A stretch of DNA of 64,000 nucleotides from Crambe crambe (Eukaryota; Porifera; Demospongiae; Poecilosclerida; Crambeidae), in contig OZ004593.1 in assembly GCA_963924555.1 (NCBI GenBank), positions 5,762,480-5,826,479 on the forward strand, in the 5' to 3' direction. The notes beneath the pieces were generated by a model. The model saw nothing but the letters and a program-made list of their open reading frames with translations, was not told the DNA's origin and did not search any database. This document shows, one piece after another, positions 2,984 through 63,363 of the stretch (position 1 is the first letter of the stretch; each line of letters opens with the position of its first letter). The translations under genes and the position numbers were made by a program.

Positions 2984-2986
2984 GTT

Positions 2987-23139: not shown

Positions 23140-23174
<35 letters not shown>

Positions 23175-24169: not shown

Positions 24170-26281
24170 ATGTTTGAGGTAAGATTATGGGCTTATTTAG
24201 GAAAATGGTAGTTGGCTTATTGGTCTTTGACTGTGTTCTTATCTCCCTTTGTCATGTGGGTGATCTAAACTCCTGGTATATATAAAACATGAAAGCAAAG
24301 GCAGCTAGATGGTTTATATCTTCAACTCTGTATTCTTATCTCTGTTTGTGGATAATCTAAACACCTGGATTAAGATAGTTTGTACATACATAGCTATAGC
24401 TATGTAGATAAATGATAGATGGTTCAGTTGCTTTCTGGTTTGATAATTCTGATAGTAAAATTACCCGGCTATAATGATTAGAAAAGCTCTGCAAAGTACA
24501 GTGTTATAATTATCATCATACAACATAATTTTTAAGTGCTTTTATTATTGTTGTAGGGGTACAAGTTTGGAGCAGCACTCATTCTGAGTACCTTTCTTCC
24601 ATTTATTTCATCTCAAGGTACGAGTTAGATAGCTATCAGTAGCTATAGTTGTAAGTTTTATTGCACATTTCCATCAATGTAGTTACAGAACTGACTATAA
24701 TATCCCTAATTCCACACAGTCTATCCTGAACGCTACACATTCATCAATCATATGTTAGTGAATGGATCATCTCCTACTGGAAACTGTTCTAATGTTAGTA
24801 TGGATGACACAATGACAACCTGTCTGCAACCAACCTCCAGTGTTCTGTTTGATGGGCGTGTCCCCACACTCACTGGACTAGATGGTGACATGTGGACAAG
24901 TCAACTACTCACATTAATAGGAACAATACGATCCATGACTACTCACACCTTAACTGCTACTATCACCTTTGATTTCACTGATACACCAGGCTATGACAGA
25001 GTAGAGAGAGTTGAGGTGGTGATGTTCAACTGTCCACAGTGGGGGATGGCATCTACTACCATCCACCTCATAGCAGCCACTGCTAGAGGTGGACACTTCA
25101 ATATTTTTAATTCAACCTCTATTAGTTCCCTCACCTCCTGTGAGTCTCTTGTGAGAGTGTGTTTGTCAACCTTCATATCTCGGCCACTAATTGGTCTACA
25201 ATTCATCCTTTACCAGGACTCTGACTGGGTGCACCTTGCTGAGGTGACCTTCTATGCCAGAGGTTCCACTTGTCCACCAAATGTTATTCACAATCAACCT
25301 ACAACACCACCACCAGATACAACGCCACAAGCTACTGTATCACCAACTATGCCACCGACTACACCTACATCACGATTGGGTGCAATATCATCAGATACAT
25401 CAGAAGAATCATCACAGGGTACAGAAACCACCACCATCATAGCAGCAGTGGTCCCTCTCTCCATTGTCCTCATTATTGTTATCATTGTAGTTGTCCTGAT
25501 CCTCTGCATAGTCTGTACCACTAAACACAAGCACCAACTCAGAGCCAAGGAGGACCACACAACCACCCACAGACAAACATACAGCCATCAACCTCCACAA
25601 GACAGAGGACACATCAACCTGTGTGAGGAGACAGGACAAGCATACTACTCCTCACTACATGACATTCAAGGAGAAGATATCCCAGCAGATCAAGCCTACA
25701 ACCGCCTTGGACGAGACACAGGTCCAGTGAGGGGAGGGGCCAAGTCTTCCCAGGGGGCAATTGTGGACAAAAATGAGGCAGAGGTGGGAGCATATTCTAC
25801 TGTGTCCTACAGCAAACAACCTCAAGCCTCCAAGGAAGCTGGTGTGGAAGGCATGGAAGATCCACTCTCACAGCTGTATGCTCAAGTCGATGAGGATGTA
25901 AAGAAACCAAAAAAGAAAAATAAAGATGTCTTTGCTACTGACCAACAAGAAGAGGCTTCTGCTTCTGCATTATATGCTCAAGTGGATGAGAAGAGAAATA
26001 AGACGAAGAAGAAGAAAGAAGAAGATACTCCACCCCACGAGCCAGACCAGCTGTATGCACAAGTGGACAAGAAGAAGAGTAAGAAGAAAAAGGAAGACAG
26101 TCCACCCCCTGAACTAGACCAGCTGTATGCTCAGGTGGACAAGAAGAAGAGGAAGAAAAAAGAAAAAAAGAAGACTGAGGAGGTGTCTCAGGAGTCAGGG
26201 GATGTGTACTCTGTAGTTAATAAACCTAGTGCTCCTCCAGTACCTCTCAAGTCAGACCTCCTCATGGAAGAACTCCAGTAA
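24170..26281 (+). CDS. Tandem receptor 1: kinase-less type I membrane protein with repeated Tyr motifs
   Basis: Predicted coding exons 24170-24178, 24557-24617, 24720-26281 (GT-AG, phases 0 and 1), 543 aa. ATG 24170 is chosen because the upstream ATG 24156 leads to a stop after splicing. Signal peptide ~1-23 (MFEGYKFGAALILSTFLPFI...), ectodomain ~44-208 with CPQWG, SCESLVRVC and DSDWVHLAEVTFYARGSTC, a Thr/Pro-rich stalk ~209-262, TM ~263-289, basic stop-transfer. Tail tyrosines: Y332/Y333 (YYSSL), Y350 (YNRL), Y382 (YSTV), Y387, four YAQV at 410, 442, 469, 493, Y520 (YSVV), then PPVPLK, a class II SH3-type ligand. Lys/Glu linkers separate the YAQV modules. The ectodomain resembles a discoidin/galactose-binding fold only by pattern. 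Probable role: surface receptor signalling through SH2 proteins (inference). Confidence 0.88.
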
Positions 26282-27356
26282 ATGCATAGCCACAGCGACA
26301 TAGTGTGTCAATATCTTCATCACATAGATACAGTATTGCTAGTATTAATAGATATTTGAATACTTGAGTTAAACTACATGTAACAATGTTATATGGTCAG
26401 GACCATGCACATACAAGCCTTAGTCACGCAGAGTTTATTTACCTACATTTTATTTGTTGTTGTTTTGTTATTGTTTTTTATTGCAGCCATGTTAATGTCC
26501 TTTGACCCTGAATGTGAGTACAAAAGTCATGATCTGATTGGTGACCTTAATATTATCACAGCATCACAGTATAGTGCAAGCAACTGGTAGTTGTGGAAGA
26601 ATTTGGTTAATGAGATCACTATACATAATTACTCCATGTGTACAGTTTCTTAGTTATAGCATTTTTAGCATGTACTCAATTGCTCTTTTAAGGCTAAAGG
26701 TTAAAGGAGTACCCGATGTATTTACAAAGCAATATACTTACTTAATGTACCTGTATTTTCATTCAAACATTATTGTATAGGCCTGCCTGAGTAAGAGAGA
26801 CAGGTGAGTGGGTAGGGAAAACTATTAACCATGGTCAGGTACCATAACATGACACAGAGGTCAGTAATCACTTGAGGGAGTGGTAGCTGGTGGAATTTTT
26901 TCTCTTCTAATTAATACACACATTAATTTTGAGGGCTCTAAAAATCTTAATAATGATTATTATCTCTAATTCTCCATAGCTTGCAGCAAGCTGGAGAAAG
27001 AAGTAGAGTTCAGATGATCTACGTACAAACTGACATCACCAACTAGCTTATTTCACTATTCAATTGAGCCATACAAAGTTCCACCAGCCATGTTAGGCCA
27101 GGAGTTACTAGCTATAATATCTTGATCATCTTATCTGACAAATCTAGTTTTTCAATATGATCAGATTATCTTTCTTTCTGTTCAATAAGCTAGGCCATCA
27201 CCCAATCAAAAAGGATGCTATGGATCGATCTACTAGTATTCCTTGGCTGAATGATAAAAGTGAAGTTTGATCTAGTCTATTAAGTACTAATAGCTACAGC
27301 ATCATTATGTCATATGACCCCAAAATCCAGCTGCATTATGACTGCGGCATAGCTAC
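26282..27356. other. 3' flank of receptor 1, no gene
   Basis: Begins with the array-wide post-stop block AATGCATAGCCAC and the GGTCAGGACCATGCAC word also found after receptor 2. Collinear with 30926-31880 (TGACATCACCAACTAGCT, TCTTGATCATCTTA). No supported gene. Confidence 0.5.
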
Positions 27357-27697
27357 ACATAGGCGTAGGAAGCATGGGGGCCATGGGGGCCATGGCCCCC
27401 ATGCTCTTTTATTCATGGGGGCCTGGCCCCCATGCCCTCTGAGCTACCAACTATACTCATTCTGACTGCAGGTATAGGCTACTCCCTTACCACAGGTTGT
27501 TACAAAGGGGAGTATTAAGCATTTTTGGCTTTGCAGGAGGGGGCACATCTCCCTACCGCACCCTCCCCCGGCTCGCTGTTGGCCTATGGCCACGTGATCG
27601 GTGAGCTTCCCCCCAAGGTGAAATTCCTAGATGAAACCCTCTTATTACATGTGATTGGTGCCCCCATGCTCTAAATCATCTTCCTACGCCTATGCTA
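27357..27697. mobile_element. MITE with CATAGGCGTAGGAAG termini
   Basis: Left end CATAGGCGTAGGAAGCATGG, right end CATCTTCCTACGCCTATG; the interior near both ends carries CCATGGGGGCCATGG-type and GCCCCCATGC words. About 340 bp, non-coding, present only in this interval of the array. Confidence 0.75.
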
Positions 27698-27700
27698 CAA

Positions 27701-27895
27701 TATGTACTATGACTGCAAGAGAGTTACGTAACCCCTTACCCATCACCAATATTACCAAACTATGAGCTAACCATTCTGACAGGCCAAGATGAGATATAAA
27801 GGGAGTGATTCTGAAGTAGGAATGGTTAGCTTGTAGTTTGGTAATATTGGTGATGGATAAGGGGTTACTTAACTCTCTTGCAGTCATAGTACATA
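27701..27895. mobile_element. Palindromic MITE, arms about 76 bp
   Basis: Arms 27701-27777 and 27820-27895 pair along their length with few mismatches (TATGTACTATGACTGCAAGA on one side, TCTTGCAGTCATAGTACATA on the other), around a spacer of about 42 bp. It lies 3 bp from the preceding MITE. A diverged half occurs at 22222-22270 upstream of gene 1. Confidence 0.8.
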
Positions 27896-29028: not shown

Positions 29029-30925
29029 ATGTTTGAAGTAAGATTATGGGCTTTTTTCTTTTTTTTTTTGGAAAACGGTAGTTGGCTTATTGGTCTTTGA
29101 CTGTGTTCTTATCTCTTATCTTCTTGTGATCTAAACACATGGAATAATTATATAATAGCATGTGAAAGCAAAGATAGCTAGATGCTTTCTGGTTAATAGT
29201 AAAATCATTTGGCTATAGAAAAGGCAAAGCAAATAATTAAATTCTTGGTCTACTGATTAACTTTTTATTATTGTTGTATAGGGGTACGAGTTTGGAACAG
29301 CACTCTTTCTGAGTACCTTTCTTCCACTTATCTCATCTCAAGGTATAGCTATTCCATATTTTTAATCCTACTGGCAACTATGGCTTTCATCTCTTTATTG
29401 TGGTAATTTTTTGATGTAGCTGTACATACTGAGTTTACTATTATATGCCTAATGTCATGCAGTCTATCCTGAACACTACACATTTGTCACTGGTACATCA
29501 GTGAATGGATCATCTCCTACTGGAAACTGTTCTAGATTGCAGAATGATAACACAATGACAACCTGTTTTCAACTGCCAAACTCTGGTGTTCTGTTTGATG
29601 GGCATGTCCCCACACTCACTGGACTAGATGGTGACATGTGGGCAAGTCAACTACTCACTATAAACACAATGGAATCCTTGACTAATATCATGTTTGACTT
29701 CACTGATACACCAGGCTATGACAGAATAGAAAGAGTTGAGGTGGTGATGTTCAACTGTCCACAGTGGGGGATAGCATCTACTGATATTGTCCTCACAGCA
29801 GCCACTACTAGAGGTCAGCCCTTCAACACTTTTGCTTCAACCTCTGTTCGTTCCCTCACCTCCTGTGAGTCTCTTGTGAGAGTGTGTTTATCAGCCGATG
29901 TTTCTCAATCATTAATTCGTCTACAATTCACCCTTGACAAGAACTCTGACTGGGTGCACCTTGCTAAGGTGACCTTCTATCCCAGGAATTCCACCTGTTC
30001 ACCAAAATTCATCATCTTCACAAAACCACCACAAAAAAGTACTACTACTCCACTATCATCATCAGATACATACACTCCATCGAATACAATTTCAGCATCA
30101 TCAGAAGAATCATCACAGGGGGCATCTGAAATAACCACCACTGTCGTAGCAGCAGTGGTCCCTCTCTCCATTGTCCTCATTATTGTTATCATTGTAGTTG
30201 TCCTGATCCTCTGCATAGTCTGTACCACTAAACACGAGCACCAACTCAGAGCCAAGGAGGACCACACAACCGCCCACAGACAAACACACAACCATCAACC
30301 TTCACAAGACAGAGGACACATCAACCTGTGTGAGGAGACAGGACAAGCATACTACTCCTCACTACACGACATTCAAGAAGAAGACGTCCCAGTAGATCAA
30401 GTCTACAACTGCCTTGAACGAGATACAGTTCCAGTGAGGGGAGGGGCCAAATCTTCTTGGGGGGCTACTGTGGACCAAAACGAGGCAGAGGTGGGAGCAT
30501 ACTCTACTGTGTCCTACAGCAAACAACCTCAAGCCTCCAAGGAACCTGGTGTGGAGGGTATGGAAGATCCACTCTCACAGCTGTATGCTCAAGTCGATGA
30601 GGACGTAATGAAGACAAAAAAGAAAAGTGAAGATGTATTTGCTACTGACCAACAAGAAGAGGTTTCTGCTTCTGCATTATATGCTCAAGTAAATGAGAAG
30701 AGAAAGAAGAAGAAGAAGAAGAAAGAGGTACACACTCCACCCCATGAGCCAGACCAACTGTATGCTCAGGTGGATAAGAAGAAGAGGAAGAAGAGAGAGA
30801 AAGAGAAAGAGGAGACTGAGGAGGTACCTCCACAGGAGTCAGGGGATGTGTACTCTGTAGTTAATAAACCTAGTGCTCCTCCAGTACCTCTCAAGTCAGA
30901 CCTCCTCATGGAAGAACTCCAGTAA
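29029..30925 (+). CDS. Tandem receptor 2: kinase-less type I membrane protein with repeated Tyr motifs
   Basis: Predicted exons 29029-29037, 29282-29342, 29463-30925, 510 aa. Same first exon type as gene 1 (MFE, donor GAA|GTAAGA). Signal peptide MFEGYEFGTALFLSTFLPLI..., then VYPEHYTF. Ectodomain with CPQWGIAST, SCESLVRVC, DWVHLAKVTFYPRNSTC; the usual AEVTFYAR is AKVTFYPR here. The stalk is Ser/Thr-rich and shorter in Pro than gene 1; TM ~251-277. Three YAQV modules (first DEDVMKTKKK, second NEKRKKKK), plus YYSSL, YNCL in place of YNRL, YSTV, YSVV and the PPVPLK end. The ASSEESSQG segment before the TM is shared with gene 1 (TSEESSQG), marking these two as nearest relatives. Direct orientation, 4.86 kb from gene 1 start. 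Confidence 0.88.
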
Positions 30926-31960: not shown

Positions 31961-32235
31961 TAAAAACTTGAATACTATGGTCATCTTCCTTAGCTATAGC
32001 CTATTCCCATACCTGTTATATGTATCAACCATCCATGGAGATGAAATCTTGTTGAAATTGAATGTACACCACCATGGACACATGAAGAAGGTAACAATTG
32101 CATGAGCATGATGGCTGGAATTAAACTCATGAAAGGAACCACTGCACTTGCTATTAGTCATAAAGGAAACTGGAAGTAATCATAATTGTGACATACCAAT
32201 CATATTAATATTCCATGGTATATGATTAACAGGGC
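31960..32235 (+). promoter_or_regulatory. Degenerate promoter-like block of the array, joined to pseudogene tail
   Basis: Matches the conserved upstream block of genes 3-8 (GGAGATGAAATC, GACACATGAAGAAGGTAAC, CATAAAGGAAACTGGAAGT, ATTCCATG) but stops before the AATAAAAG box and first exon. Immediately after it, tail-coding sequence begins. Confidence 0.65.
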
Positions 32236-32265
32236 TGGCTCATCTGATTCAATATTGGGTGGGCC

Positions 32266-32719
32266 ACATACTCTACTGTGTCCTACAGCAAACAACCTCA
32301 AACCTCCAAGGAAGCTGGTGTGCTCACAACTGTATGCTCAAGTCAATGATGACATAAAGAAATCAAAAAAGAAAAGTGAAGACGTCTTTGCACAAGAAGA
32401 GGCTTCTGCTTCTGCATTATGCTCAAGTGGATGAGAAGAGAAAGAAGAAGAAGGAGGAGGAGGAGGAAGACACTCCACCCCACAAGCCAGACCAGCTCTA
32501 TACACAAGTGGACAAGAAGAAGAGTAAGAAGAAAAAGGAAGACTGTCCACCCCCTGAGCTAGACCAGCTGTACGCTCAGGTGGACAAGAAGAAGAGGAGA
32601 AAGAAGAGACTGAGGAGGTGTCTCCACAGGAGTCAGGTGATGTGTACTCTGCAGTTAATAAACCTAGTGCTCCTCCAGTATCTCTCAAGTCAGACCTCCT
32701 CACGGAAGAACTCCAGTAA
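32266..32719 (+). pseudogene. Receptor fragment: cytoplasmic tail only, internal deletion and frameshifts
   Basis: Reads YSTVSYSKQPQTSKEAG, then a deletion, SQLYAQVNDD, EEASASAL, a 2-nt loss inside the second YAQV module, then two more YAQ/YTQV modules, another frame change and the usual ...LLTEELQ stop at 32717-32719. Signal peptide, ectodomain, stalk and TM are missing. With the promoter-like block directly upstream, it is best explained as a gene copy that lost about 1.5-2 kb internally and then decayed. It has four module remnants, so its parent was a four-module type. Confidence 0.85.
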
Positions 32720-33962: not shown

Positions 33963-36064
33963 ATGTTAAAGGTAAGACTGAGACTGTAATTATTGCAGGT
34001 CACAAGTAAAGGCTGTGTAGACTCCTTTCAAATGATACCTAGCTAGATGTGTGTGTATATGCACATTCTTGGGGAGTAAATCACCAACACATTACAATTT
34101 CCCAGTTAATGTGATTATTGTAGTAGGCCACACTACGTACTTCACTACTTGTGAGGAAAAATCATTCTAAAAATTTAATTAATGTCCTCCAACACTATAG
34201 CTAGTTATGCTGGCAGAGCATGTCATCACTTTGAGCTGCATTTTTGATGACAGATGATTTTTCTGTAATTTTATATGCACACACACAAAAAAACAACTAA
34301 AACACAGATTGTGGTCAGATAATTCTATTACGTTACTCAACTTGTGAATTAAAGAGCTGAGCAATTAGCTACTTCATAATATTTCATCCAAAATTTAATT
34401 CTCTGTACCATTAAATTTACTTATTGTATAGGGGTATGAGTTTGGAATAGCATTCTTTCTGGGTATTTTTCTTCCAATTATCTCATCTCAAGGTAACTAT
34501 TCAACTTTCAATCACATCTATAACTATGACTTATTATATCAACCTTTGATTTAGCTACAGAGCTGTCTATAATAATTATCCCTAATTCCTCACAGTCTAT
34601 CCTGAACACTACACATTTATCACTGGTACATCAGTGAATAGATCATCTCCTACTGGAAACTGTTCTAATGTTAGTATGGATGACACAATGACAACCTGTC
34701 TGCAGCCAACTTCCAGTGTTCTGTTTGATGGGCATGTCCCCACACTCACTGGACTAGATGGTGACATGTGGGCAAGTCAACTACTCACAATACAAAAAAC
34801 GCAGCCCTTGACTAGTGTCACCTTTGATTTCACTGATACACCAGGCTATGACAGAATAGAAAGAGTTGAGGTGGTAATGTTCAACTGTCCACAGTGGGGG
34901 ATAGCATCTACTACCATCCAACTTGATGGGGCCAATGCTACAGGTCAGCCCTTCAACACTTTTAATTTATCTTCTGTTAGTTCCATCACCTCCTGTGAGT
35001 CTCTTGTGAGAGTGTGTTTGTCAGCCTTCGTTTCTCGAAAACTAATTCGTCTACAATTCGCCCACCAGGACTCTGACTGGGTGCACCTTGCTGAGGTGAC
35101 CTTCTATTCCAGAAATTCCACATGTCCACCAAATATCATCCTAACACCATCAGATACAACACCACCAGATGCAATGCCATCTGATGCAAATATTGCTACT
35201 ATATCAGCAATGAATATTTCTACTTCTGTAACTACAACCAGATCACAGGGGACATCTGTTCAAGACAAAACAACAATTACCATCATACCAGCAGTGGTCC
35301 CTCTCTGCATTATCCTCATTATTATTATCATTGTAGTTGTCCTGATCCTCTGCATAGTCTGTACCACTAAAGACAAGCACCAACTTAGAGCCAAGGAGGA
35401 CCACACAACCACCCACAGACAAACACACAACCATCAACCTCCACAAGACAGAGGACACATCAACCTGTGTGAGGAGACAGGACAAGCATACTACTCCTCA
35501 CTACACGACATTCAAGGAGAAGATGTCCCAGCAGATCAAGTCTACAACCGCCTTGAACGAAACACAGGTCCAGTAAGGGGAGGGGCCAAGTCTTCCCGGG
35601 GGGCTACTGTGGACCAAAACGAGGCAGAAATGGGAGCATACTCTACTGTGTCTTACAGCAAACAACCACAAGCCTCCAAGGAAGCTGGTGTGGAGGGGAT
35701 GGAAGATCCACTCTCACATCTGTATGCTCAAGTCGATGAGGATGTAAAGAAACTAAAAAAGAAAAATGAAGATGTCTTTGCTACTGACCAACATAAAGAG
35801 GCTTCTGCTTCTGCATTATATGCCCAAGTGGATGAGAAGAGAAAGAAGAAGAAGAAGAAGAAGAAAAAAGAAGAAGACACTCCACCCCATGAGCCAGACC
35901 AGCTGTATGCACAAGTGGACAAGAAGAAGAGGAAGAAGAGAGAGAAAGAAGAGATTGAGGAGGTATCTCCACAGGAGTCAGGGGATGTGTACTCTGTAGT
36001 TAATAAACCTAGTGCTCCTCCAGTGCCTCTCAAGTCACACCTCCTCATGGAAGAACTCCAGTAA
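33963..36064 (+). CDS. Tandem receptor 3: kinase-less type I membrane protein with repeated Tyr motifs
   Basis: Predicted exons 33963-33971, 34432-34492, 34596-36064, 512 aa. First exon is MLK (ATGTTAAAG, donor GTAAGA), the type shared by genes 3-8. Signal peptide MLKGYEFGIAFFLGIFLPII... An early NGSS glycosylation-type site is changed to NRSS, still N-x-S. Ectodomain with CPQWGIASTT, SCESLVRVC, DWVHLAEVTFYSRNSTC; the stretch before DSDWV is one or two residues shorter than in paralogues. TM reads IIPAVVPLCIILIIIIIVVV, with a Pro and Cys not seen in most copies. Three YAQV modules (HLYAQV, ALYAQV, QLYAQV) with a nine-Lys run between the last two, YYSSL, YNRL, YSTV, YSVV, PPVPLK. Confidence 0.88.
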
Positions 36065-38875: not shown

Positions 38876-41178
38876 ATGCTAAAGGTATAGGACTAATACT
38901 GCATGTCACCCCTTAGTCAGTAAAGGTTGTGTAGACTCCTATATTTTGCTATGCGCGTACATATTTGGGAGAGCTCTACTTTGAAAATGTGACCGCCAAA
39001 GCATTATTATTTCAATTCCCACCTATAGGGAGAATAATTCTTCAATAATAGTTTCATACAACAGATAATTATGCTGGCAGAGCATGTTAGATATCAGTTT
39101 GAACTGATGGTGATTACAGAGCAAAATAGAAATAAGTTAGATAGGTATGTAGCTATTGTACGTACTTGTGAATGGTAAAGTCACACCATATACCTGTTTG
39201 AGAAAAATGGTACGTAGCTAGCTAACATGTTTAAGTGTTCTTATCTTTCTTTATGGATGACCTGAACACCTGGAATATAATTTCCAGTTCTGTTATAATA
39301 GTTGTACATAATAGACACATGAAAATTGTTCAGTTGCTTTCTTATCTGACAATTCTGATAGTAAAGTAAAACCTAATCAGCTAGTGACTGTAGATTAGAT
39401 GATTTAGCAAGAGCAAAGGAAATAGCTACTCCATTTATATGGTAGTAATTAAGCTTAGTGCACTGATGATTAACTCCATACCATTTACTATTGTATAGGG
39501 GTACAAGTTTGGAATAGCACTCTTTCTGAGTACCTTATTTCTTCCACTTATCTCATCTCAAGGTAGACTTTCAATCACATCTCTATCTACTATGATTAGA
39601 AGATTTTGCACATCTTACCTGCATACATCATATCCCTAATTTCATGCAGTCTATCCTGAACGTTACATTTTTCATACTGGTACGTCAGTGAATGGATCAT
39701 CTCCTACTGGACACTGTTCTAGACAAGAGAACACAACTACAATGACAACCTGTCTGCAACCAAACTCCAGTGTTCTGTTTGATGGGCATGTCCCAAAACT
39801 CTCTGGACTAGATGGTGACATGTGGGCAAGTCAACTACTCACTATAAACAGAACACGATCCTTGACTAATGTCATCTTTGACTTCACTGATACACCAGGC
39901 TATGACAGAGTAGAGAGAGTTGATGTGGTGATGTTCAACTGTCCACAGTGGGGGATAGCATCTACTAACATAAAAACATCAGGGGGCAATAATCTGGACG
40001 TCTTCAATATTTTTGATTTAACCTCTGTTGAATCTCTCACCTCCTGTGACTCTCTTGTGAGAGTCCACGTGTGTTTATCAGTCAACATTTCTCAACCTAA
40101 AGTTCGTCTACAATTCACCCTTGACCAGGATTCTGACTGGGTGCACCTTGCTGAGGTGACCTTCTATGCCAGAGGTTCCACCTGTCCACCAAATGTCATC
40201 CTCAATCCACCTACAACATCACCACCAGATACAACATCACCAGATGCAACATCACCTTCAATATCAGTGGAATTAGATACGACTTCAGAAAAATCTTCAC
40301 AGGTTACAATGGGCTCCATTGGGACATCTACTCAAGATAAAACGATCACCACCATCATAGCAGCAGTGGTCCCTCTCTCCATTGTCCTCATTATTGTTAT
40401 CATTGTAGTTATCCTGATCCTCTGCATAGTCTGTACCACTAAACACAAGCACCAACTCAGAGCCAAGGAGGACCTCACAACCACCCACAGACTAACACAT
40501 AACCATCAACCTCCACAAGACAGAGGACATGTCAACCTGTGTGAGGAGACAGGACAAGCATACTACTCCTCACTACACGACATTCAAAGAGAAGATGTCC
40601 CAGCAGATCAAGTCTACAACCACCTTGAACGAGACACAGGTCCAGTGAGGGGAGGGGCCAAGTCTTCCCAGGGGGATACTGTGGACCAAAACAAGGCAGA
40701 GGTGGGAGCATACTCTACTGTGTCCTACAGCAAACAACCTCAAACCTCCACGGAAGCTGGTGTGGAGGGTATAGAAGATCCACTCTCACAGCTGTATGCT
40801 CAAGTTGATGAGGATGTAAAGAAAAAGAAAAGTGAAGATGTCTTTGCTATTGACCAACAAGAAGAGGCTTCTGCTTCTGCATTATATGCTCAAGTGGATG
40901 AGAAGAGAAAGAAGAAGAAGAAGAAGAAGAAAGAAGAAGACAGTCCACCCCCTGAGCTAGACCAGCTGTATGCACAAGTGGACAAGAAGAAGAAGAGTAA
41001 GAAGAAGAAGGAAGACACTCCACCCCACGAGTCAGACCAGCTGTATGCACAAGTGGACAAGAAGAAGAGGAAGAAGAGAGAGAAAGAAGAGATTGAGGAG
41101 GTGTCTGCACAGGAGTCAGGGGACATGTTCTCTCCAGTACCTCTCAAGTCAGACCTCCTCATGGAAGAACTCCAGTAA
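38876..41178 (+). CDS. Tandem receptor 4: kinase-less type I membrane protein, C-terminal Tyr motif deleted
   Basis: Predicted exons 38876-38884 (ATGCTAAAG), 39499-39562, 39650-41178, 533 aa. The signal exon is 64 nt, one Leu codon longer than in paralogues, phase kept. The ectodomain carries extra residues (SGGNNLDVFNIFD; LVRVHVCLSV has an added HV) and is among the most diverged, though DSDWVHLAEVTFYARGSTC is intact. TM typical with VVILILCIVC. Four YAQV modules. The end differs: after EESGDM-like sequence it reads SGDMFSPVPLKS, so the YSVV tyrosine and the NKPSAP half of the proline motif are lost in an in-frame deletion of about 30 nt, while PVPLK remains. Confidence 0.87.
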
Positions 41179-45838: not shown

Positions 45839-48259
45839 ATGTTAAAGGTAAGACTGATTCTGTAACTACGTATTGCAAGTAATCCCTCAGTCTGTGTGCA
45901 TATTTTGGGGGAGCTCTACGTACTTTGAAAATGTAACCACAAAAACCTCAACAGTAGTTTCATACAACAGATATGTAATTATGCTGGCAGAGCATTTTGT
46001 CAGTTTGAACTGTATCTTTTGATGATGGTAATTGCAGTTCTGAGAGAGTAAAATTAAAATTAGCACTATAATCGTAAGCAACTACTGTATTTGTGAATGG
46101 TATAGTCACACCATGTATGTTAATTATGGGCCTGTTTGGGATAGCAAACATACTTGGTCTCTGACTGTTATGGGAGCACCTGGAATATAATTTTTAGTTC
46201 TGTAAATAGTTGTACATAAGACACATAAATTTGTTCAGATGCTTTCTTGTCTGATAATTCTGATAGTAAAGCTAATCTGCTAGTGACTGTAAATTAGATG
46301 GTTTAGCAACATTAGCTATTATACCACATAGTATGCAATTCTTAGTGCACTATTAATTGTATAGGGATACAAGTTTGGAATAGCACTCTTTCTGAGTACC
46401 TTTCTTCCACTTATCTCATCTCAAGGTAACTATTTACTATTTTCAATTCTGACATTCACTCCCCTAAATCTCCGGGGCTTACGAAAAGGTGTTTGGACAG
46501 ACAGTCCACAGATGAGTGGATGTTCCCGGTCTAGGGGACAAATAGAGTGTAAAGGGCCCGTCAGTTGGCCTGGGATGGGTCAGGCATCCCACCCACATGA
46601 GGGGAGTGGCCCTTGTAATTTTCCAACCTTTTCTCCATCTCGACATGAGTTACGGAGACTAGTTAGTTAGTGCAAAACCCGCACAATGTTAAATTACATC
46701 TATAGCTACTTATAGCTATGATGTGCATATTCTTATTCATGGCTATACATAGCTGATAGTAATATCACTAATGTCATGCAGTCTATCCTGAAAGTTTCAC
46801 ATTTCTCACTGGTATGTCAGTGAATGGATCATCTTCTACTGGAAACTGTTGTAATGGCACAAATAGAACCTGTTCGAAACCAAACTCCAGTGTTCTGTTT
46901 GATGGGCATGTCCCCACACTCACTGGACTAGATGGTGATATGTGGGCAAGTCAACTACTCATATTACAAACAACAGAACGATTAACACTTAATCCTAATG
47001 CCTTGGTAGCTGATGTCATCTTTGACTTCAGTGTCACTGATACACCAGTTTATAGAGTTGAGGTGGTGATGCTTAACTGTCCACAGTGGGGGATAGGAAC
47101 TACTAGAATCAGCCTCGACGGGGGCCCTGCTGGAGGTCAGTCTTTCAACACTTTTGCTTTAACCTCTGTTAGTTCCCTCATCTCCTGTGAGTCTCTTGTG
47201 AGAGTGTGTTTATCAGGGAACCTCATATCTAAATCACTAATTCGTCTACAATTCACCCTTGACCAGGACTCTGACTGGGTGCACCTTGCTGAAGTGGCCT
47301 TCTATGCCAGAGGTTCCACCTGTCCATCAAATGTCATCCTAAAGCCACCACCTACAACACAACCAGATACAACACCACCTGCAGTAACATCAGATGCAGA
47401 TACAACTTCAGAAAAATCATCACAGGATACAATACCATTGGGTTCCGTTGGGACATCTACTCAAGATAAAATGACCACCACCATCATAGCAGCAGTGGTC
47501 CCTCTCTCCATTGTCCTCATTATTGTTATCATTGTAGTTGTCCTGATCCTCTGCATAGTCTGTACCACTAAACACAAGCACCAACTCAGAGCCAAGGAGG
47601 AACACACAACTACCCACAAACAAGCACACAGCCATCAACCTCCACAAGACAGAGGACACATCAACCTGTGTGAGGAGACAGGACAAGCATACTACTCCTC
47701 ACTATACGACATTCAAGGAGAAGACGTCCCAGCAGATCAAGTCTACAACCGCCTTGAACGAGACACAGGTCCAGTGAAGGGAGGGGGAAAGTCTCCCCGG
47801 GGGGCTACTGTGGACCAAAATGAGGTAGAGGTGGGAGCATACTCTACTGTGTCCTACAGAAAACAGCCTCAAGTCTCCAAGGAAGCTGGTGTGGAGGGTA
47901 TGGAAGATCCACTTTCACAGCTGTATGCTCAAGTTGATGAGGATGTAAAGAAACCAAAAAAGAAAAGTGATGACGTCTTTGCTACTGACCAACAAAAAGA
48001 GGCTTCTGCTTCTGCATTATATGCTCAAGTGGATGAGAAGAGAAAGAAGAAGAAGAAGAAGAAAGAAGAAGACACTCCACCCCACGAGCCAGACCAGCTG
48101 TATGCACAAGTGGACAAGAAGAAGAGAAAGAAGAGAGAGAAAGAGGAGATTGAGGAGGTGCCTCCACAGGAGTCAGGAGATGTGTACTCTGTAGTTAATA
48201 AACCTAGTGCTCCTCCAGTACCTCTCAAGTCAGACCTCCTCATGGAGGAACTCCAGTAA
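45839..48259 (+). CDS. Tandem receptor 5: kinase-less type I membrane protein with diverged ectodomain
   Basis: Predicted exons 45839-45847, 46365-46425, 46782-48259, 515 aa. Mature start reads VYPESFTF. The ectodomain N-terminus lacks the VSMDDTM segment (NCCNGTNRTCSKPNSSV) and has an insertion of about ten residues (LTLNPNALVADV), and GYDR is replaced by PVYR; CPQWGIGTT and DSDWVHLAEVAFYARGSTC remain. The stalk carries TTSEKSSQ. TM standard. Three YAQV modules, YYSSL followed by YDIQ (an extra tyrosine where others have HDIQ), YNRL, YSTV, YSVV, PPVPLK. Intron 2 is 356 nt because of a GC-richer insertion (about 46445-46690) not seen in the paralogues. Confidence 0.87.
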
Positions 48260-49303
48260 ATGCATAGCCACATAACTTATGAATGTTTCAGTCAAACAAA
48301 CAATGCCATTATGGTCAGGATTACGTATAATGATACAGGCACATTTTATCACACAGAGTGAATGAATATGTTCATTAGCTAACTATCTTTTTGTTAATGT
48401 TATGTGTGTGTCATAAATTCAAAGCTTGCTGTGATAACTATGAAATTGAATACGTTAAGTGATACCTGTTTTGTATACATTGAAACATGCACTGGAAATG
48501 GGTGGTAGCTAACTTTCAAGACTATCAATCAGTTCATAACTTTGTAGTTACCCACATTCGGGGTCAAGGGATATTTTTTTTTAAATACAGGTTTCAATAC
48601 AATACCCACTCTAACCAACTACATTACTTTAGCAATATAGATATCAGGATGGTTAGTTTTGTACTGAATTGTTGAATGTTATGAAGAGAAAAATAGCAAC
48701 TTAGCTAAATGATTCATAAAGATGTAGCTAGCTATACACGTTACCATGAAATTGTACTGGGCTGGAGGGAGGGTAGATTAGGACAGTGAGGAATGATCCT
48801 AAGTTAGAATTATCCACTGGCATAGGAATGGGGATCACAGGGGTCAGGCCCCCCCCCCTCTAATTTTTTCCTCCCATAAAACTTTATGAATCTTCAATAT
48901 TATCCTAACATGCCTGTTAGCCATTCATTACCAGATAGTACTACAATATGTAAAATTGCAACTTTTGTGTAGATATAATTACCCAAAATAGGTGTAGTGC
49001 CTTTTAACATGGCCTCAGCTAGAAATAAGGGGATTTTCTTGAGTTAAATGAACAATGCATGCCATTATGGTCAGGATTACGTATAATGATACAGGCCACA
49101 TTTTCACCCTTATGTGTCACACAGAGTGAATGGATATGTTATTAGCTAGTTAGTTCACATTTTATCTTTTTGTTATTTTAGCCAATGTTAAACTAAGAAT
49201 AATTATGTTTGTGTCATGAATTCAAGCTGTGATAATTATGAAATTGAATACGTTTAACTAAATGATCTCATAGTACGTACTGAAATATACCTGTTCTGTA
49301 TAC
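48260..49303. other. 3' flank of receptor 5
   Basis: The common 3' flank, then from about 49030 a second copy of the same post-stop block (AACAATGCATGCCATTATGG) leading straight into the tail fragment. No gene. Confidence 0.5.
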
Positions 49304-49767
49304 GGGGGGCTACTCTCAGTCAAAATAGGCTGGATCAAAATGAGGCAGAGGTGGGAGCATACTCTACTGTATCCTACAGCAATCAACCTCAAGCCTCCAA
49401 GGAAGCTGGTGTGGAGGGTATGGAAGATCCACTCTCACAGCTGTATGCTCAAGTTGATGAGGAAGTAAAGAAATCAAAAAAGAAAAGCGAAGACATCTTT
49501 GCTACTCACCAACGAGAAGAGGTTTCTGCTTCTGCATTGGATGGGAAGAGAAAGAAGAGAAAGAAGAAGAAAGAGGAAGACACTTCACCCCATGAGCCAG
49601 ACCAGCTGTATGCGCAAGTGGACAAGAAGAAGAGGAAGAAGAAAGAGAAAGAGGAGATTGAAGAGGTGTCTCCACAGGAGTCAGGGGATGTGTACTCTGT
49701 AGTTAATAAACCTAGTGCTCCTCCAGTGCCTCTCAAGTCACACCTCCTCATGGAAGAACTCCAGTAA
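49304..49767 (+). pseudogene. Receptor fragment: cytoplasmic tail with intact 138-codon frame
   Basis: From about 49304 the sequence matches the tail exon from the GGGGGGCTACTGTGGACCAA region; a TAG follows shortly, then the frame is open from GGTGGGAGCATACTCTACTG to the normal stop at 49765-49767. It encodes YSTV, a first YAQV, a second module in which the ALYAQVDEK piece is deleted (ASALDGKRKK), a third YAQV, YSVV and the SH3-type end. No signal peptide, ectodomain or TM is near; it is preceded by a duplicated 3' flank, so it arose by a partial tandem duplication. It could only be expressed as a soluble tail, which is unlikely. Confidence 0.82.
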
Positions 49768-51419: not shown

Positions 51420-53735
51420 ATGCTAAAGGTATAGGACTAATACTACATGCAGCATTGCCACCCCTCAGTCAGTAAAGGTTGTTTTGCTGTGTGTGTATGT
51501 GCATACGTACATATTTGGGAGAGCTCTACTTCGAAATGTGACCACCAAAGCATTGTTATTTCGATTCCCACTTAAAATATAAAGAGAATAATAATTAACA
51601 TCCTCTAACAATAGTTTCATACAACAGATAGCTAATTATGCTGGCAGAGCATGTTAGATATCAAGATGGTGATATTAAAATTAATTAGCACTATAATCAT
51701 AAGTACATAGCTACTGTATTTGTGAATGGTAAAGTCACACCATATACTGTTATGTAGCTAGCTAACATGTTTAAGTGTTCTTATCTTTCTTTATGGGTGA
51801 CCTAAACACCTGGAATATAATTTCCAGTTCTGTTACGGTAGTCTTACATAATAGACACATAAGAATTGTTCAGTTGCTTTCTTGTCTGACAATTCTGATG
51901 GTAAAGTAAAAGCTAATCAGCTAGTAACTATGTAGCAAGAGCAAAGATTAACTCTACACTATTTATTGTTGTAGGGGTACAAGTTTGGAATAGCACTCTT
52001 TCTGAGTACCTTTCTTCCACTTATCTCATCTCAAGGTAACTATATATTCTTACTACTTTCTATTGGTAGCTATGATGAGAAGATTTTGCACATTAGACCT
52101 GTATTCATTGCACATAATTATTCATGGCTACATAGTTGACAGTAATATCACTAATGTCATACAGTCTATCCTGAACACTACACATTTACCACTGGTATGC
52201 CAATGAATGGATCATCTCCTACTGGAAACTGTTGTAATGTTAGTATGGATGACACAATGACAACCTGTTCAAAACCTAACTCTAGTGTTCTGTTTGATGG
52301 GCATGTCCCCACACTCACTGGACTAGATGGTGACATGTGGGCAAGTCAATTACTCACAATACAAACAAAGAAAAGCCCGATTAATGTCATCTTTGACTTC
52401 AGTGATACACCAGGCTATGACAGAATAGAGAGGGTTGAGGTGGTGATGTTCAACTGTCCACAGTGGGGGATAGCATCTACTACCATCACCCTCACAGGGG
52501 CTACTGCTAGAGGTCAAACCTTCAATACTTTTGCTTCAACCTCTGTTAGTTCCCTCACCTCCTGTGGGTCTCTTGTGAGAGTGTGTTTATCAGCCTTCAT
52601 TCCTCGACAACTAATTGGTCTACAATTCGCCCTTGACCAGGACTATGAATGGGTGTACCTTGCTGAGGTGAACTTCTATGCCAGAGATACCACATGTCCA
52701 GCAAATGTCATCCTCGATCAACAAACAACACCACCACCAGATACAACACCACCACCACCTGCATGTACAACACCACCACTAACTACAACACCACCTGAAG
52801 AACAATCGAGTGCAGATACTACTTTATCACAAGTTACAATACTAACTTCCGTAGGGACATCTACTCAAGATAAAATAACCACCACCATCATAGCAGCAGT
52901 GGTCCCTCTCTCCATTGTCCTCATTATTGTTATCATTGTAGTTGTCCTGATCCTCTGCATAGTCTGTACCACTAAACACAAGCACCAACTCAGAGCCAAG
53001 GAGGACCACACAACCACCCACAGACAAACACACAACCATCAACCTCCACAAGACAGAGGACACATCAACCTGTGTGAGGAGACAGGACAAGCATACTACT
53101 CCTCACTACACGACATTCAAGGAGAAGATGTCCCAGCAGATCAAGTCTACAACCGCCTTGAACGAGACACTGGTCCAGTGAGGGGAGGGGCCAAGTCTTC
53201 CCGGGGGGGTACTGCGGACCAAAATGAGGCGGAAGTGGGAGCATACTCTACTGTGTCCTACAGTAAACAGCCTCAAGCCTCCAAGGAAGCTGGTGTGGAG
53301 GGTATGGAAGATCCACTCTCACAGCTGTATGCTCAAATCGATGAGGATGTAAAAAAATCAAAAAAGAAAAGTGAAGACGTCTTTGCTACTGACCAGCAAG
53401 AAGAAGCTTCTGCTTTTATATTACATGCTCAAGTGGATGAGAAGAGAAAGAAGAAGAAAAAGAAGAAAAAGGAAGACACTCCATCATACGAGCCAGACCA
53501 GCTGTATGCCCAAGTGGGCAAGAAGAAGAGTAAGAAGGAAAAGGAAGACAGTCCACCCCCTGAGCTAGACCAGCTGTATGCTCAGGTGGACAAGAAGAAG
53601 AAGAAGAAGGAGAAGAAAGAGAAGACTGAGGAGGTGTCTCTACAGGAGTCAAGGGATGTATACTCAGTAGTTAATAAACCTAGTGCTCCTCAAGTACCTC
53701 TCAAGTCAGACCTCCTCATGAAAGAACTCCAGTAA
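51420..53735 (+). CDS. Tandem receptor 6: kinase-less type I membrane protein, one YAQV tyrosine lost
   Basis: Predicted exons 51420-51428 (ATGCTAAAG, donor GTATAG), 51975-52035, 52165-53735, 546 aa, the longest copy. Ectodomain with CPQWGIASTT, SCGSLVRVC and DYEWVYLAEVNFYARDTTC, so the usually fixed DSDWVHL and GSTC are changed. The stalk is the most Pro/Thr-rich (runs of TTPPP, about 60 residues). Four module positions: YAQI, then HAQV (Tyr to His) in the second, YAQVGKKK, YAQVDKKK. YYSSL, YNRL, YSTV, YSVV are present; the proline end is PQVPLK, keeping PxxPxK out of register only in its first Pro. The final residues are LLMKELQ. Confidence 0.87.
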
Positions 53736-55901: not shown

Positions 55902-56260
55902 CTATTCTCATACCTTTCATGTATCAGCAATGGAGATGAAATCCTGTTGAAGATGGATGGCAACACTTTGGACACATGAAGAAGGTAACTTCAATGACTG
56001 AAATTAGACTCATGGAAGAAACAACTGCACTTACATACCATTAACCATAAAGGAAACTGGAAGTGATCATAGATTCATAATTACGTACGACATTATAAAC
56101 ATTCCATGCATTAACTATAAAATACAGTTTTTATATTGTCAACAGAATCTAATAAAAGCTGTGCCTGTTTTATCAGCCAGTCAGATTTAAGAGCAGTGAA
56201 GTATCAGTTTCCTGAAGTCTGTAGCAGTTAAACTCTATACAGTGTGAAACTACATACACT
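55902..56260 (+). promoter_or_regulatory. Promoter-like block of receptor 7
   Basis: Conserved upstream block; AATAAAAG at 56151-56158, 110 nt before the ATG. A second, diverged piece of the block lies inside intron 1 at about 56745-56825. Confidence 0.55.
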
Positions 56261-58855
56261 ATGTTAAAGGTAAGACTGATACTGTAATATTGCAGCCTAT
56301 ATATACTTTTTGACACAGTAGCTACAGTATCATACTTTTCATGATGTGAAGGATAAATATTATATTCTTTTGGTAGGAAAATAATATGTATAGCTACATA
56401 AATGGTGGATTTTTTTATTCATCACCCAACAGAAAAAAAAGTTACACTTGCTAATAATTAGCTCATGCAGGCAACACATAAGCTACAATTATTGCTGCTC
56501 TCTATTCCATGAAACTATTCTATCAAAATTTTTATGGCTTGCATAGCTTCATCTCCGGCTGAACATGCTGATTTGCTTAGCTACATAATTAGCTATGTAT
56601 ATTATTACATATAAAATATTGACTCTGCTTACTGAGAATGACAGTTATTGCTAGTTACATCAACTTGCTAGGCCATGTAACATGATTACTCAAATCTCTA
56701 TGAACTTGAGTATTCATGGTCATCTCCGTAGCTACATGCAGCTATTCTCATACCTTTTGCATGCATCAGCATTAGAGATGAAATCCTGGATGGCACCTCT
56801 AAATACAACACTTTGGACACATGAAGGCTGGCAAAGCATGTAAACTGCAAAAACAAAATTTTAGGGTTATAACAATGATTAGTCTCACCTAACAGGTATA
56901 TTTATCAAAAATAACATTTGTTTTTGCAGTGAACTGCACTTTTTGAGTTAGCAAGTATAAGTATTGTAAGTATTGTATTTGTGAATGGTACCCACACCAT
57001 TGGCAATAGCTACTTGGTCCTTTCTATAACTTTCAGATGGTTTATATACACACATGAAACTAAAAAATGGATTGTTTAGTTAATTTCTGGTCAGACAATT
57101 CTAAGGTACTCAACTTGTGACTATAAATTAAAATTAAAGAGCAAAACTAAACAAATACTTCAAAAAATTAATTCTTATTAACCTCTTCTATTTACCTCTA
57201 TACCATTGAATTTTACTGTTGTACAGGGGTATGAGTTTGTGATAGCACTCTTTCTGAGTATTTTTCTTCCACTCATCTCGTCTCAAGGTAAATCTATTAT
57301 TATCTGAAAGCATTCCACTTTTGATATAGCTGCATTATAGTTGACTATAATATTCCACACAGTCTATCCTGAACACTACACATTTCCCACTGGTATATCA
57401 GAGAATGGATCATCTCCTACTGGAAACTGTTCTAATGTTAGTATAGCTGGCACAATGACAACCTGTCTACAACCAACCTCCAGTGTTCTGTTTGATGGGC
57501 ATGTCCCTACACTCACTGGACTAGATGATGACATGTGGGCAAGTCAACTACTCACTACACAATCCTCGACTAAGGTCATCTTTGACTTCACTGATACACC
57601 AGGCTATGACAGAATAGAAAGAATTGAGGTGGTGATGTTCAACTGTCCACAGTGGGGGACAGCATCTACTTTAATCAACATCGCAGGGGCCACTGCTAGA
57701 GATCAACTCTTCAAAGCTTTTGCTTTTACCTCTGTTAGTTCCCTCACCTCCTGTGAGTCTCTTGTGAGAGTGTGTTTGTTAACCAATGTTTCTCAACCAG
57801 TAATTAGTCTACAATTCATCCTTGACCAGGACTCTGATTGGGTGCACCTTGCTGAGGTGACCCTCTATGACAGAGGTTCCACCTGTCCACCAAATGTCAT
57901 CCTCAATCCACCTACAACACCACCAGATGCAACGCTATCAAATACAACATCACCAACTATACCCACAACACGATTGGATCCAATAACATCAGATAATATT
58001 TCGGCATCATCGAAAGAACCATCACAGAATATAACAACTTTGATGGGACTTGCTACTCAAGATAAAACAACCACCACCATCATAGCAGCAGTGTTCCCTC
58101 TCTCCATTGTCCTCATTATTGTTATCATTGTAGTTGTCCTGATCCTCTGCATAGTCTGTACCACTAAACGCAAGCACCAACTCAGAGCCAAGGAGGACCA
58201 CACAACCACCCACAGACAAGCACACAGCCATCAACCTCCACAAGATGGAGGACACATCAGCCTGTGTGAGGAGACAGGACAAGCATATTACTCCTCAATA
58301 CACGACATTCAAGGAGAAGACATCACAGCAGATCAAGTCTACAACCGCCTTGAACGAGATACAGGTCCAGTAAGGGGACGGGCCAAGTCTTCCTGGGGAC
58401 TTACTGTGGACCAAAATGAGGCAGAAGTGGGAGCTTACTCTACTGTGTCCTACAGCAAACAACCTCAAGCCTCCAAGGAAGCTGGTGTGGAGGGTATGGA
58501 AGATCCATTCTCACAGCTGTATGCTCAAGTCAATGAGGATGTAAAGAAACCGAAGAAAAGTGAAGACATCTTTGCAACTGACGAACAAGAAGAGGCTTCT
58601 GCTTCTGCATCATATGCTCAAGTGGAGGAGAAGAGAAAGAAAAAGAAGAAGAAGAAGAAAGAAAAAGACACTCCACCCCACGAGCCAGACCAGCTGTATG
58701 CGCAAGTGGACAAGAAGAAGAGGAAGAAGAGAGAGAAAGAGGAGATCGAGGAGGTGCTTCCACAGGAGTCAGGGGATGTGTACTCTGTAGTTAATAAACC
58801 TAGTGCTCCTCCAGTACCTCTCAAGTCACACCTCCTCATGGAAGAACTCCAGTAA
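56261..58855 (+). CDS. Tandem receptor 7: kinase-less type I membrane protein with repeated Tyr motifs
   Basis: Predicted exons 56261-56269, 57227-57287, 57363-58855, 520 aa. Intron 1 is the longest (957 nt) and contains sequence like that upstream of receptor 3. The frame runs open into intron 2 upstream of 57363, but the conserved CACAG acceptor sets the exon start. Signal peptide MLKGYEFVIALFLSIFLPLI... Ectodomain with a shortened LLTTQSSTKVIFDF segment, CPQWGTAST, SCESLVRVC, DSDWVHLAEVTLYDRGSTC. The stalk is long and Asn/Ser-rich. TM AAVFPLSIVLIIVIIVVV. Three module positions: YAQVNED, SYAQVEEK, YAQVDKKK. YYSSI in place of YYSSL, YNRL, YSTV, YSVV, PPVPLK. Confidence 0.88.
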
Positions 58856-60768: not shown

Positions 60769-61129
60769 ACCTTTCATGTATCAGCAATGGAGATGAAATC
60801 CTGTTGAAGATGGATGGCATTTCTACAACACTTTAGATTCATGAAGAAGGTAACTGCATGAAAATGATGACTGAAATTAGACTCATGGAAGAAACAACTG
60901 CACCTACGTACCATTAGCCATAAAGGAAACTGGAAGTGATTATAGATTCATAAATACGTCATATAAACAGTCCATGCATTAACTATACAGTTTTTATATT
61001 ATCAACAGAATCTAATAAAAGTTGTGTCTGTTCTATCAACCAGTCAGATTTAAGAGCAGTGAAGTATCAGTTTCCTGAAGTCTGACAAGCAGTTAAACTC
61101 TATACAGTGTGAACTATATACAGTACACT
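60769..61129 (+). promoter_or_regulatory. Promoter-like block of receptor 8
   Basis: Conserved upstream block; AATAAAAG at 61014-61021, 116 nt before the ATG. Confidence 0.55.
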
Positions 61130-63363
61130 ATGCTAAAGGTAAGACTGAGACTGTAACTATTGCAGGTCATCCCTCAGTCAGTAAAGGCTATGTACACCTT
61201 TTTCAAATAAACTAAATGATATCTTTTGTTTTGCTGTGTGTATGTGCAATCGCTGCATGGACTGCATTTGTCACTATGCTCCGCTAACTGTCATAAAATT
61301 GACATAAACCTTACATCGCTGCTGCCATAATGATATTATCCTTTTTTGGCTACACCTTGCAGCAATATAGGGTTTATGTCAATTTTATGACAGTTAGCGG
61401 AGCATAGTGACAAATGCAGTCCATGCAGCGATGTAGGGTTTATCAATTCTGTGACAGTTATTAGCAGAGAAAAATGCAGTACATAGCCAGCACCTTGTTT
61501 CTGTACTTGGTCTTTGAATCTGTATTCTTATCTCTTTTGTGGGTAATTTACGTAGCTATAAAAATACATGACAGATGGTTCAGTTGCTCTCTGGTCTGAT
61601 AATTCTGATAGTAAAATACTTGCCTATGATTAGAAAAGCACAATACTTTACTATTATATTGTGCATTGATTAGCTTTAGTTATTATTGTATAGGGATACA
61701 AATTTGGACCAGCACTTTTTCTGAGTGCCTTTTTCCCTCTCTTCTCATCTCAAGGTAGCTATTCTATGTATTTTATGTATTCACTACTACAGCTACTTGT
61801 AGCTATGACTTATTATCTGAGAGGATTTTCACATTTAACCTTTGATGTGACTATAATCCCACAGTCTATCCTGAACGCTACACATTTCTCACTAGTACAT
61901 CAGTGAATGGATCATCTCCTACTGGAAACTGTTCTGATGTTAGTATGGATGACACAATGACAACCTGTCTGCAACCAACCTCCAGTGTTCTGTTTGATGG
62001 GCGTGTCCCCACACTCACTGAACTAGATGGTGACATGTGGGCAAGTCAACTACTCACTATAAACACAATACAATCCTTGACTATTGTCATCTTTGACTTC
62101 ACTGACACACCAGGCTATGTTGGGATACGGAGAGTCGAGGTGGTGATGTTCAACTGTCCACAGCGGGGGATAGCATTTACTACCGTCAACCTCTTAGTAG
62201 CCACAGGTAGAGGTCAGCCCTTCAATCATCTTGGTCCCATCTCTGTCAGTTCCCTCACCTCCTGTAAGTATCTCGTGAGAGTGTGTTTGTCAATCACTGA
62301 TTCTCGACCAGTAATTGGTCTACAATTCAGCCTTGACCAGGACTCTGACTGGGTGCACCTGGCTGAGGTGACCTTCTATGCCAGAGGTTCCACATGTCCA
62401 CCAAATATCATCCTCAATCCACCTACAACACCACCACCAGATACAACACCACCAAATACAATGTCACCAACTACACCCACAACACGATTGGATGCAATAT
62501 CATCAGATAATATTTTGGCATCATCAGGAGAATCATCACAGAATACAACGACTTCAATGGAATTTTTTGGAATATCCACTCAAGATAAAATAACCACCAC
62601 CATCATAGCAGTAGTGGTCCCTCTCTCCATTGTCCCCATTATTATTATCATTGTAGTTGTCCTGATCCTCTGCATAGTCTGTACCACTAAACACAAGTAC
62701 CGACTCGGAACCAAGGAGGACCACACAACCACCCACAGACAAACACACAACCATCAACCTCCACAAGACAGAGGACATATCAACCTGTGTGAAGAGACAG
62801 GACAAGCATACTACTCCTCAATACACGACATTCAAGGAGAAGATGTCCCAGCAGATCAAGTCTACAACCGCCTTGAACGAGACACTGGTCCAGAGAGGGG
62901 AGGGGCCAAGTCTTCCCGGGGGGCTACTGTGGACCAAAACAAGGCAGAGATGGGAGCATACTCTACCGTGTCCTACATTAAACAACCTCAAGTCTCCAAG
63001 GAAGCTGGTATGAATGATCCACTCTCACAGCTCTATGCTCAAGTTGATGAGGATGTAAAGAAAAAGAAAAGTGAAGACATCTTTGCAACTGACCAACAAG
63101 AAGAGGCTTCTGCTTCTGCATTATATGCTCAAATGGATGAGAAGAGAAAGAAAAAGAAGAAGAAAATAGAGGAAGACACTCCACCCCATGAGCCAGACCA
63201 GCTGTATGCGCAAGTAGACAAGAAGAAGAGGAAGAAGAGAGAGAAGGAGGAGATTGAGGAGGTGTCTCCACAGGAGTCAGGGGATGTGTACTCTGTAGTT
63301 AATAAACCTAGTGCTCCTCCAGTACCTCTCAAGTCAGACCTCCTCATGGAAGAACTCCAGTAA
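61130..63363 (+). CDS. Tandem receptor 8: kinase-less type I membrane protein with diverged ectodomain core
   Basis: Predicted exons 61130-61138 (ATGCTAAAG), 61694-61754, 61865-63363, 522 aa. Signal peptide MLKGYKFGPALFLSAFFPLF... The ectodomain departs at otherwise fixed places: GYVGIRRVEVV for GYDRIERVEVV, CPQRGIAFTT (Trp to Arg in CPQWG), SCKYLVRVC for SCESLVRVC; DSDWVHLAEVTFYARGSTC is intact. Stalk similar to gene 7 (TTRLDAISSDNI versus TTRLDPITSDNI). TM IVPIIIIIVVV with an internal Pro. Tail lacks the VEG insert before the first module. Three modules: YAQVDED, YAQMDEK, YAQVDKKK. YYSSI, YNRL, YSTV, YSVV, PPVPLK are kept. A perfect hairpin element sits in intron 1. Confidence 0.88.
61251..61430. 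mobile_element. Hairpin MITE in intron 1 of receptor 8, perfect 60-bp arms
   Basis: Arms 61251-61310 (CGCTGCATGGACTGCATTTG...) and 61371-61430 are exact reverse complements around a 60-bp spacer. Right after it, 61431-61470 partly repeats the inner sequence (ATGTAGGGTTTAT, CTGTGACAGTTA). No other copy of the unit carries it, so it inserted after duplication. Confidence 0.88.

Follow-up and report, generated by a model that had tools for sequence, protein, structure and literature searches.

A tandem array of eight predicted kinase-less receptor genes with tyrosine-rich tails and an ectodomain of no named family

The array and its gene models

We begin by considering the window, that is, the whole stretch of 64,000 nucleotides that was analysed and in whose positions all coordinates are given. 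Its plus strand carries eight direct copies of one gene (Table 1), each with an exon 3 that is a single long frame. The earlier note had described eight apparently intact copies with three-exon models, and the models predicted here bear this out: with the three exons joined, all eight are in frame, have conserved splice sites (GT donors and AG acceptors), encode 510 to 546 residues and contain no internal stop codon. The start-to-start spacings that it listed (4859, 4934, 4913, 6963, 5581, 4841 and 4869 nt) are reproduced exactly by the positions of exon 1. This exon is a nine-base first coding exon, reading ATG TTT GA[G/A] in copies 1 and 2 and ATG [T/C]TA AAG in copies 3 to 8. Exon 2, conserved and 61-64 nt long, codes for the signal peptide (GY[KE]FGIALFLSTFLPLISSQ and variants) in the array copies, and the stop codon of every tail falls within exon 3. 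The predicted layout is the same for all eight products: a signal peptide, a cysteine-containing ectodomain, a Thr/Pro-rich stalk, one transmembrane segment (TM) and a Tyr-rich tail.

Table 1. Features of the array in window positions; the first position of each copy is the ATG of its exon 1.
Feature	Position	Strand	Details
Copy 1	24170..26281	+	exon 1 24170-24178 (MFE), exon 2 24557-24617 (signal peptide), exon 3 24720-26281 (ectodomain, stalk, TM, tail); 543 aa
Copy 2	29029..30925	+	exon 1 29029-29037, exon 2 29282-29342, exon 3 29463-30925; 510 aa
Degenerate tail-only copy, between copies 2 and 3	32230..32716	+	found by tblastn; frame changes and stops
Copy 3	33963..36064	+	exon 1 33963-33971 (MLK type), exon 2 34432-34492, exon 3 34596-36064; 512 aa
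Copy 4	38876..41178	+	exon 1 38876-38884, exon 2 39499-39562, exon 3 39650-41178; 533 aa; tail end without PxxPxK and without the preceding YSVV
Copy 5	45839..48259	+	exon 1 45839-45847, exon 2 46365-46425, exon 3 46782-48259; 515 aa
5'-truncated tail-only copy, between copies 5 and 6	49300..49764	+	found by tblastn; open as far as the MEELQ end
Copy 6	51420..53735	+	exon 1 51420-51428, exon 2 51975-52035, exon 3 52165-53735; 546 aa
Ectodomain of copy 6 (reference)	52164..52706	+	from alignments: conserved C23, C35, C98, C134, C141 and C178, and N-glycosylation sequon (NGS)
Copy 7	56261..58855	+	exon 1 56261-56269, exon 2 57227-57287, exon 3 57363-58855; 520 aa
Copy 8	61130..63363	+	exon 1 61130-61138, exon 2 61694-61754, exon 3 61865-63363; 522 aa

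Apart from the features of Table 1, a tblastn search with the eight proteins (E 1e-3) finds no further ectodomain or tail copy in the window. The segments upstream of the copies align to one another, and the repeat unit is therefore larger than the gene. Just upstream of the array, at about 23140-23173, the plus strand has an unbroken run of more than 30 G.

Relatives of the array

Two protein searches, one of which scored 8000 candidates, found 123 (the search of 8000) and 126 proteins; the best 120 of each give 160 distinct relatives, to which 15 were added later. The ectodomain is present in 178 of 181 sequences (the 175 relatives and the eight window copies, less two database twins of copies 5 and 6). 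The genes are clustered, with 28 contigs that hold at least two members and largest groups of 14, 13 and 10, where contigs are told apart by size and most of the proteins are tabulated. One relative, P0015, comes from a contig that matches the window's in size and is absent among the window frames listed, so that the family continues outside the window. On the ectodomain tree the window copies interleave with P0002-P0014 from a contig of 270,639 bases, which may be either a second array or a divergent haplotype.

Four relatives (P0083, P0100, P0109 and P0118) have a signal peptide that ends in SQ and reads on before the ectodomain; their starts would fit the same exon-2/exon-3 junction as that of the window copies, and none of the relatives clearly shows a spliced junction of these two exons. 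No relative was confirmed in viral contigs, with exon 3 of copy 6, P0083 and profile A2 as queries, or in prokaryote genome contigs. In the open-access literature, judged by titles and the openings of abstracts, no description of the family was found.

The ectodomain

The ectodomain is about 180 residues long, with six conserved cysteines and an N-glycosylation sequon. Alignment A1 consists of 92 chosen sequences, fragments without part of the ectodomain being left out, and W59, L63, C98, C134 and E168 (copy 6 numbering) are invariant in all of them; among 24 diverse ectodomains, the invariant columns number 13.

The earlier note had recognised no named family here and had proposed a profile search of the ectodomain as a check. 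The search was run and agrees with the note: Pfam, searched at E up to 10 with filters that remove most hits weaker than about 0.1, has no family that matches any of the 24 diverse members, and their profile matches no chain among the PDB sequences at E up to 10. With NCBIfam, five families each match one of the 24 members, at a best E of 0.012. The one Ig-type signal is a weak match to a bacterial Ig-like family (PF05688, E 0.005), seen in one of 58 whole relatives, and the ectodomain may be called non-Ig only in the sense that sequence matches are absent. A single ectodomain searched against the PDB sequences gave three matches at E 1.1 (helicase), which are taken as chance.

One relative, P0098, has two ectodomains in tandem. 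In another, P0030, the ectodomain groups near that of window copy 7 on the tree, and a stretch of PVTTP repeats comes after it, with no clear TM; it is possibly a secreted form or a prediction artefact.

Tyrosine motifs and domain content

Each window tail has 9-11 tyrosines, and the number in Yxx[VLI] context is 8, 7, 7, 7, 7, 7, 7 and 6 in copies 1 to 8, where shuffles of the composition lead one to expect 1.2-1.5 per tail. In 5000 shuffles per tail, the observed count was never reached for copies 1-7 and was reached twice for copy 8. The YxxV/L context claimed in the earlier note thus stands, with its "seven to nine" corrected to six to eight Yxx[VLI] sites, and the PxxPxK tail end that it also described is present in seven of the eight copies, copy 4 being the exception.

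None of the eight window tails has a canonical ITIM ([S/I/V/L]xYxx[V/L/I]) or a strict ITAM (Yxx[L/I]x6-12Yxx[L/I]); all eight have a near-ITAM pair with a spacing of 13 residues (YSSL/YSSI...YNxL). Beyond the window, 141 of the 160 relatives have a TM (called by hydropathy above 2) and a tail longer than 120 residues, with medians of 11 tyrosines and 7 Yxx[VLI] sites. Within this long-tailed group, 59 carry at least one ITIM, 5 a strict ITAM and 66 a PxxPx[KR] motif, and the commonest contexts of the 1610 tyrosines are YAQV (329), YSVV (76) and YSSL (53). The longest tail is that of P0148, with 886 residues and 33 tyrosines. P0141, P0146, P0148, P0152 and P0154 form a subfamily of very long tails (724-886 residues, 24-33 tyrosines) with repeated YAQL/YAEL/YAQP.

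No kinase, Ig or TIR family is found among the Pfam matches listed for the eight exon-3 proteins at E up to 10 (for one protein, the best 25 of 26). Among the Pfam families listed for 173 relatives (the 175 fetched minus two that are window copies) at E up to 0.01 (best 25 of 30, 19 of 19 and 25 of 26), there is no kinase, SH2 or TIR; these relatives are frames predicted from contigs, where a kinase encoded by a separate exon would escape notice. In the eight copies, the matches to TMEM154, Mid2, SIT and similar Pfam families all fall below cut-off and were rejected as matches to stalk and TM. The gene models, the Pfam lists and the motif counts support the kinase-less single-pass receptor design with a phosphotyrosine-type tail that had been proposed for the locus, and by the features tested the family does not belong with ITIM, ITAM or RTK members.

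Constraint among the eight copies

We compare the 28 pairs of window copies by Nei-Gojobori counts. In the ectodomain, dN is 0.169 and dS is 0.179, a ratio of 0.94 (bootstrap 0.72-1.25), and dN exceeds dS in 12 of the 28 pairs. The distal tail has a dN of 0.057 and a dS of 0.213, with a ratio of 0.27 (bootstrap 0.18-0.40) and dN above dS in no pair; in none of 1000 bootstraps is the ectodomain ratio at or below that of the distal tail. The proximal tail, with a dN of 0.071, a dS of 0.124 and a ratio of 0.57 (interval 0.31-1.09), lies between the two. The distal tail alone is clearly constrained, and the ectodomain lacks such constraint among the copies. The contrast of ectodomain and distal tail does not come from gene conversion, because the dS values of both are similar. 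The variable part of the ectodomain, a sub-region picked after inspection, gives a ratio of 1.17 with an interval (0.85-1.61) that includes 1, and relaxed constraint on the ectodomain fits as well as positive selection does. The stalk is the most variable of all regions (dN 0.535, dS 0.557). The TM has very few changes (dN 0.047, dS 0.028, with dN above dS in 18 of 28 pairs), and the very low dS around it suggests local homogenisation.

Two alternatives can be weighed with these numbers. In the first, the array is a largely non-functional repeat that was spread by unequal crossing-over and is little expressed, for which the two broken tail copies within the array and the homogenised TM region can be cited; this is very improbable in view of the eight full models without internal stops and the purifying selection on the distal tail. 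In the second, the products are transmembrane adaptors of the LAT/SIT/PAG/LIME kind, whose function resides in the tail and whose ectodomain drifts because it can be dispensed with. The strong constraint on the distal tail would suit such adaptors, as would some weak Pfam hits: SIT, PAG and SCIMP in one or a few window copies, none of them reaching cut-off, and LIME1, HGAL and SIT in one or two relatives per scan. Against it, these matches are weak and concern few members, and an ectodomain with five residues invariant throughout A1 is not drifting freely; we hold the adaptor explanation to be quite improbable, if less so than that of a non-functional repeat.

A second tail type on related ectodomains

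A second, short type of tail (B) of 66-128 residues with 3-8 tyrosines is attached to related ectodomains, and YE[EQ][MV], TYMEV and NEAYA occur in most of its members. The TM of the tail-B proteins differs from the A type in 20 of 21, with an A-like TM in P0109. A charged residue in the TM is found in none of the 21 B proteins and in none of the 155 other segments examined. Six hybrids (P0018, P0047, P0090, P0092, P0108 and P0159) combine the TM and proximal tail of the A type with an end of the B type.

To place the two types on the ectodomain tree, 171 rows were used (7 of the 178 were shorter than 130 residues and were dropped), of which 153 are labelled (132 A, 21 B) and 18 unlabelled. 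Tail type needs 16 changes on this tree, compared with 17-21 (mean 20.0) in 200 shuffles of the labels, the tree being one quick tree with several weak branches and the labels having been given by pattern and by hand. The agreement of tail type with the ectodomain tree is only slightly better than chance. The nearest ectodomain of a B-tail protein has an A tail in 11 of the 21 cases (up to 89% identical) and a B tail in 10, and A and B tails occur together on five contigs, again told apart by size. Related ectodomains on different tails with linked genes, as in paired receptors, are present among the relatives; within the window itself, a six-frame search for four tail-B motifs found none. As for the "inhibitory/activating" character suggested in the earlier note, the second tail class on related ectodomains speaks indirectly for it, and the absence of a canonical ITIM or strict ITAM from all eight window tails speaks against it.

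Tail exchange also bears on a further alternative, in which the products are structural or adhesion proteins: the stalked ectodomain would bind cells together or fasten them to matrix, the tail would chiefly anchor SH3/SH2 scaffolds to the cortex, no variable ligand would be recognised, and copy number would serve dosage. The Thr/Pro-rich stalk as the most variable region, the sequon in the ectodomain and the PxxPxK tail end are all compatible with such proteins. An adhesion protein kept for dosage is not expected to have an ectodomain far less constrained than its distal tail, or to exchange tails on related ectodomains, and we regard this explanation as unlikely, though the least unlikely of the three alternatives.

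A model for the function of the family

The gene design, the contrast in constraint and the exchange of tails, considered together, point to possible recognition receptors with interchangeable signalling tails, like paired immunoreceptors. We favour, as rather probable, a non-named family of kinase-less recognition receptors, encoded in a tandem array, that would signal by phosphotyrosine and SH3 docking.

According to this model, the array products would be type I single-pass receptors at the cell surface. The recognition part would be the N-terminal domain on its Thr/Pro-rich stalk, weakly constrained between copies, and may bind self, non-self or microbes. Upon ligand binding or clustering, a separate tyrosine kinase, presumably of the Src-family type, would phosphorylate the repeated YxxV/L/I sites (YSSL, YNRL, YSTV, the repeated YAQV and YSVV). 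Several SH2 proteins could then bind along the tail, a flexible rod rich in Lys, with SH3 proteins docking at the terminal PxxPxK. Through the A and short B tails, one recognition domain would feed into different outputs, as paired receptors do. The kinase, the partners, the ligand and the direction of signalling in this scheme are all putative.

The introns, signal peptides and tyrosine motifs of these genes fit an animal, a sponge being the best guess. A wider proposal is more tentative, and we offer it as a possibility that is somewhat doubtful at present: the family may represent paired receptors that evolved independently in an early-branching animal, probably sponges, and that join an undescribed ectodomain to scaffold tails of multiple YxxV sites or to a short tail instead. 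Such receptors would recognise self/non-self or microbes, and would be candidates for the receptor side that is missing from sponge allorecognition.

Comparison with known receptors

Vertebrate paired receptors (KIR, LILR, SIRP) carry related ectodomains on alternative tails, with a charged TM residue in the short-tailed partner, and the motif of KIR/LILRB is VTYAQL. The YAQV of the window family resembles this motif, but the residue at -2 in the eight tails is not S, I, V or L. The ectodomain is unrelated by sequence to those of KIR, LILR and SIRP, and the short-tailed B form, unlike theirs, has its own tyrosines and no charged TM residue.

The FcoR and fester families of Botryllus (fuhc locus) share with the window family the clustering of receptor genes, and PMC12065747 describes FcoRs as having a TM and, on their long tail, possible ITIM, hemITAM and core Yxx[I/L/V] motifs. 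FcoRs have Ig and sushi domains together with canonical ITIM/hemITAM, whereas the window family has no Ig or sushi match and no canonical ITIM/ITAM in its eight tails. For Hydractinia, PMC11999971 and PMC12065747 describe an Alr gene complex with 41 members of the family, in which candidate genes bear ITAM/ITIM-type motifs; the Alr ectodomains are of the immunoglobulin superfamily, whereas that of the window family is without a Pfam match. Among sponges, PMC10855680 reports a tandem expansion of receptor genes in the SRCR superfamily, with 158 of 296 in arrays in Amphimedon. Tandem expansion is common to both, but SRCR is a known domain family and the present ectodomain is absent from Pfam.

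According to PMC12065747, sponges, cnidarians and ascidians do not share conserved candidate allorecognition proteins, and the candidates of ascidians and cnidarians bear ITIM/ITAM-type motifs. A large family that combines Yxx[VLI] tails with an ectodomain of no named kind would widen this convergence to include a different sort of receptor; it would also give concrete genes to test for allorecognition and name a domain that Pfam lacks.

The commonest Pfam match of the relatives is the TMEM154 profile (PF15102), found in 28 of 58, 20 of 60 and 17 of 55 at E up to 0.01. The matched region is confined to stalk and TM, and in none of the eight window copies does the match reach the curated cut-off.

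Other features of the window

Elsewhere in the window, a long open frame of Helitron type (2984-8908) has Helitron_like_N, a PIF1 helicase and two OTU stretches, and a Lys-rich frame (1715-2983) lies just upstream of it. A further frame (17436-18251) ends in a berberine-bridge (BBE) match, like the C-terminal part of an FAD-linked oxidase.
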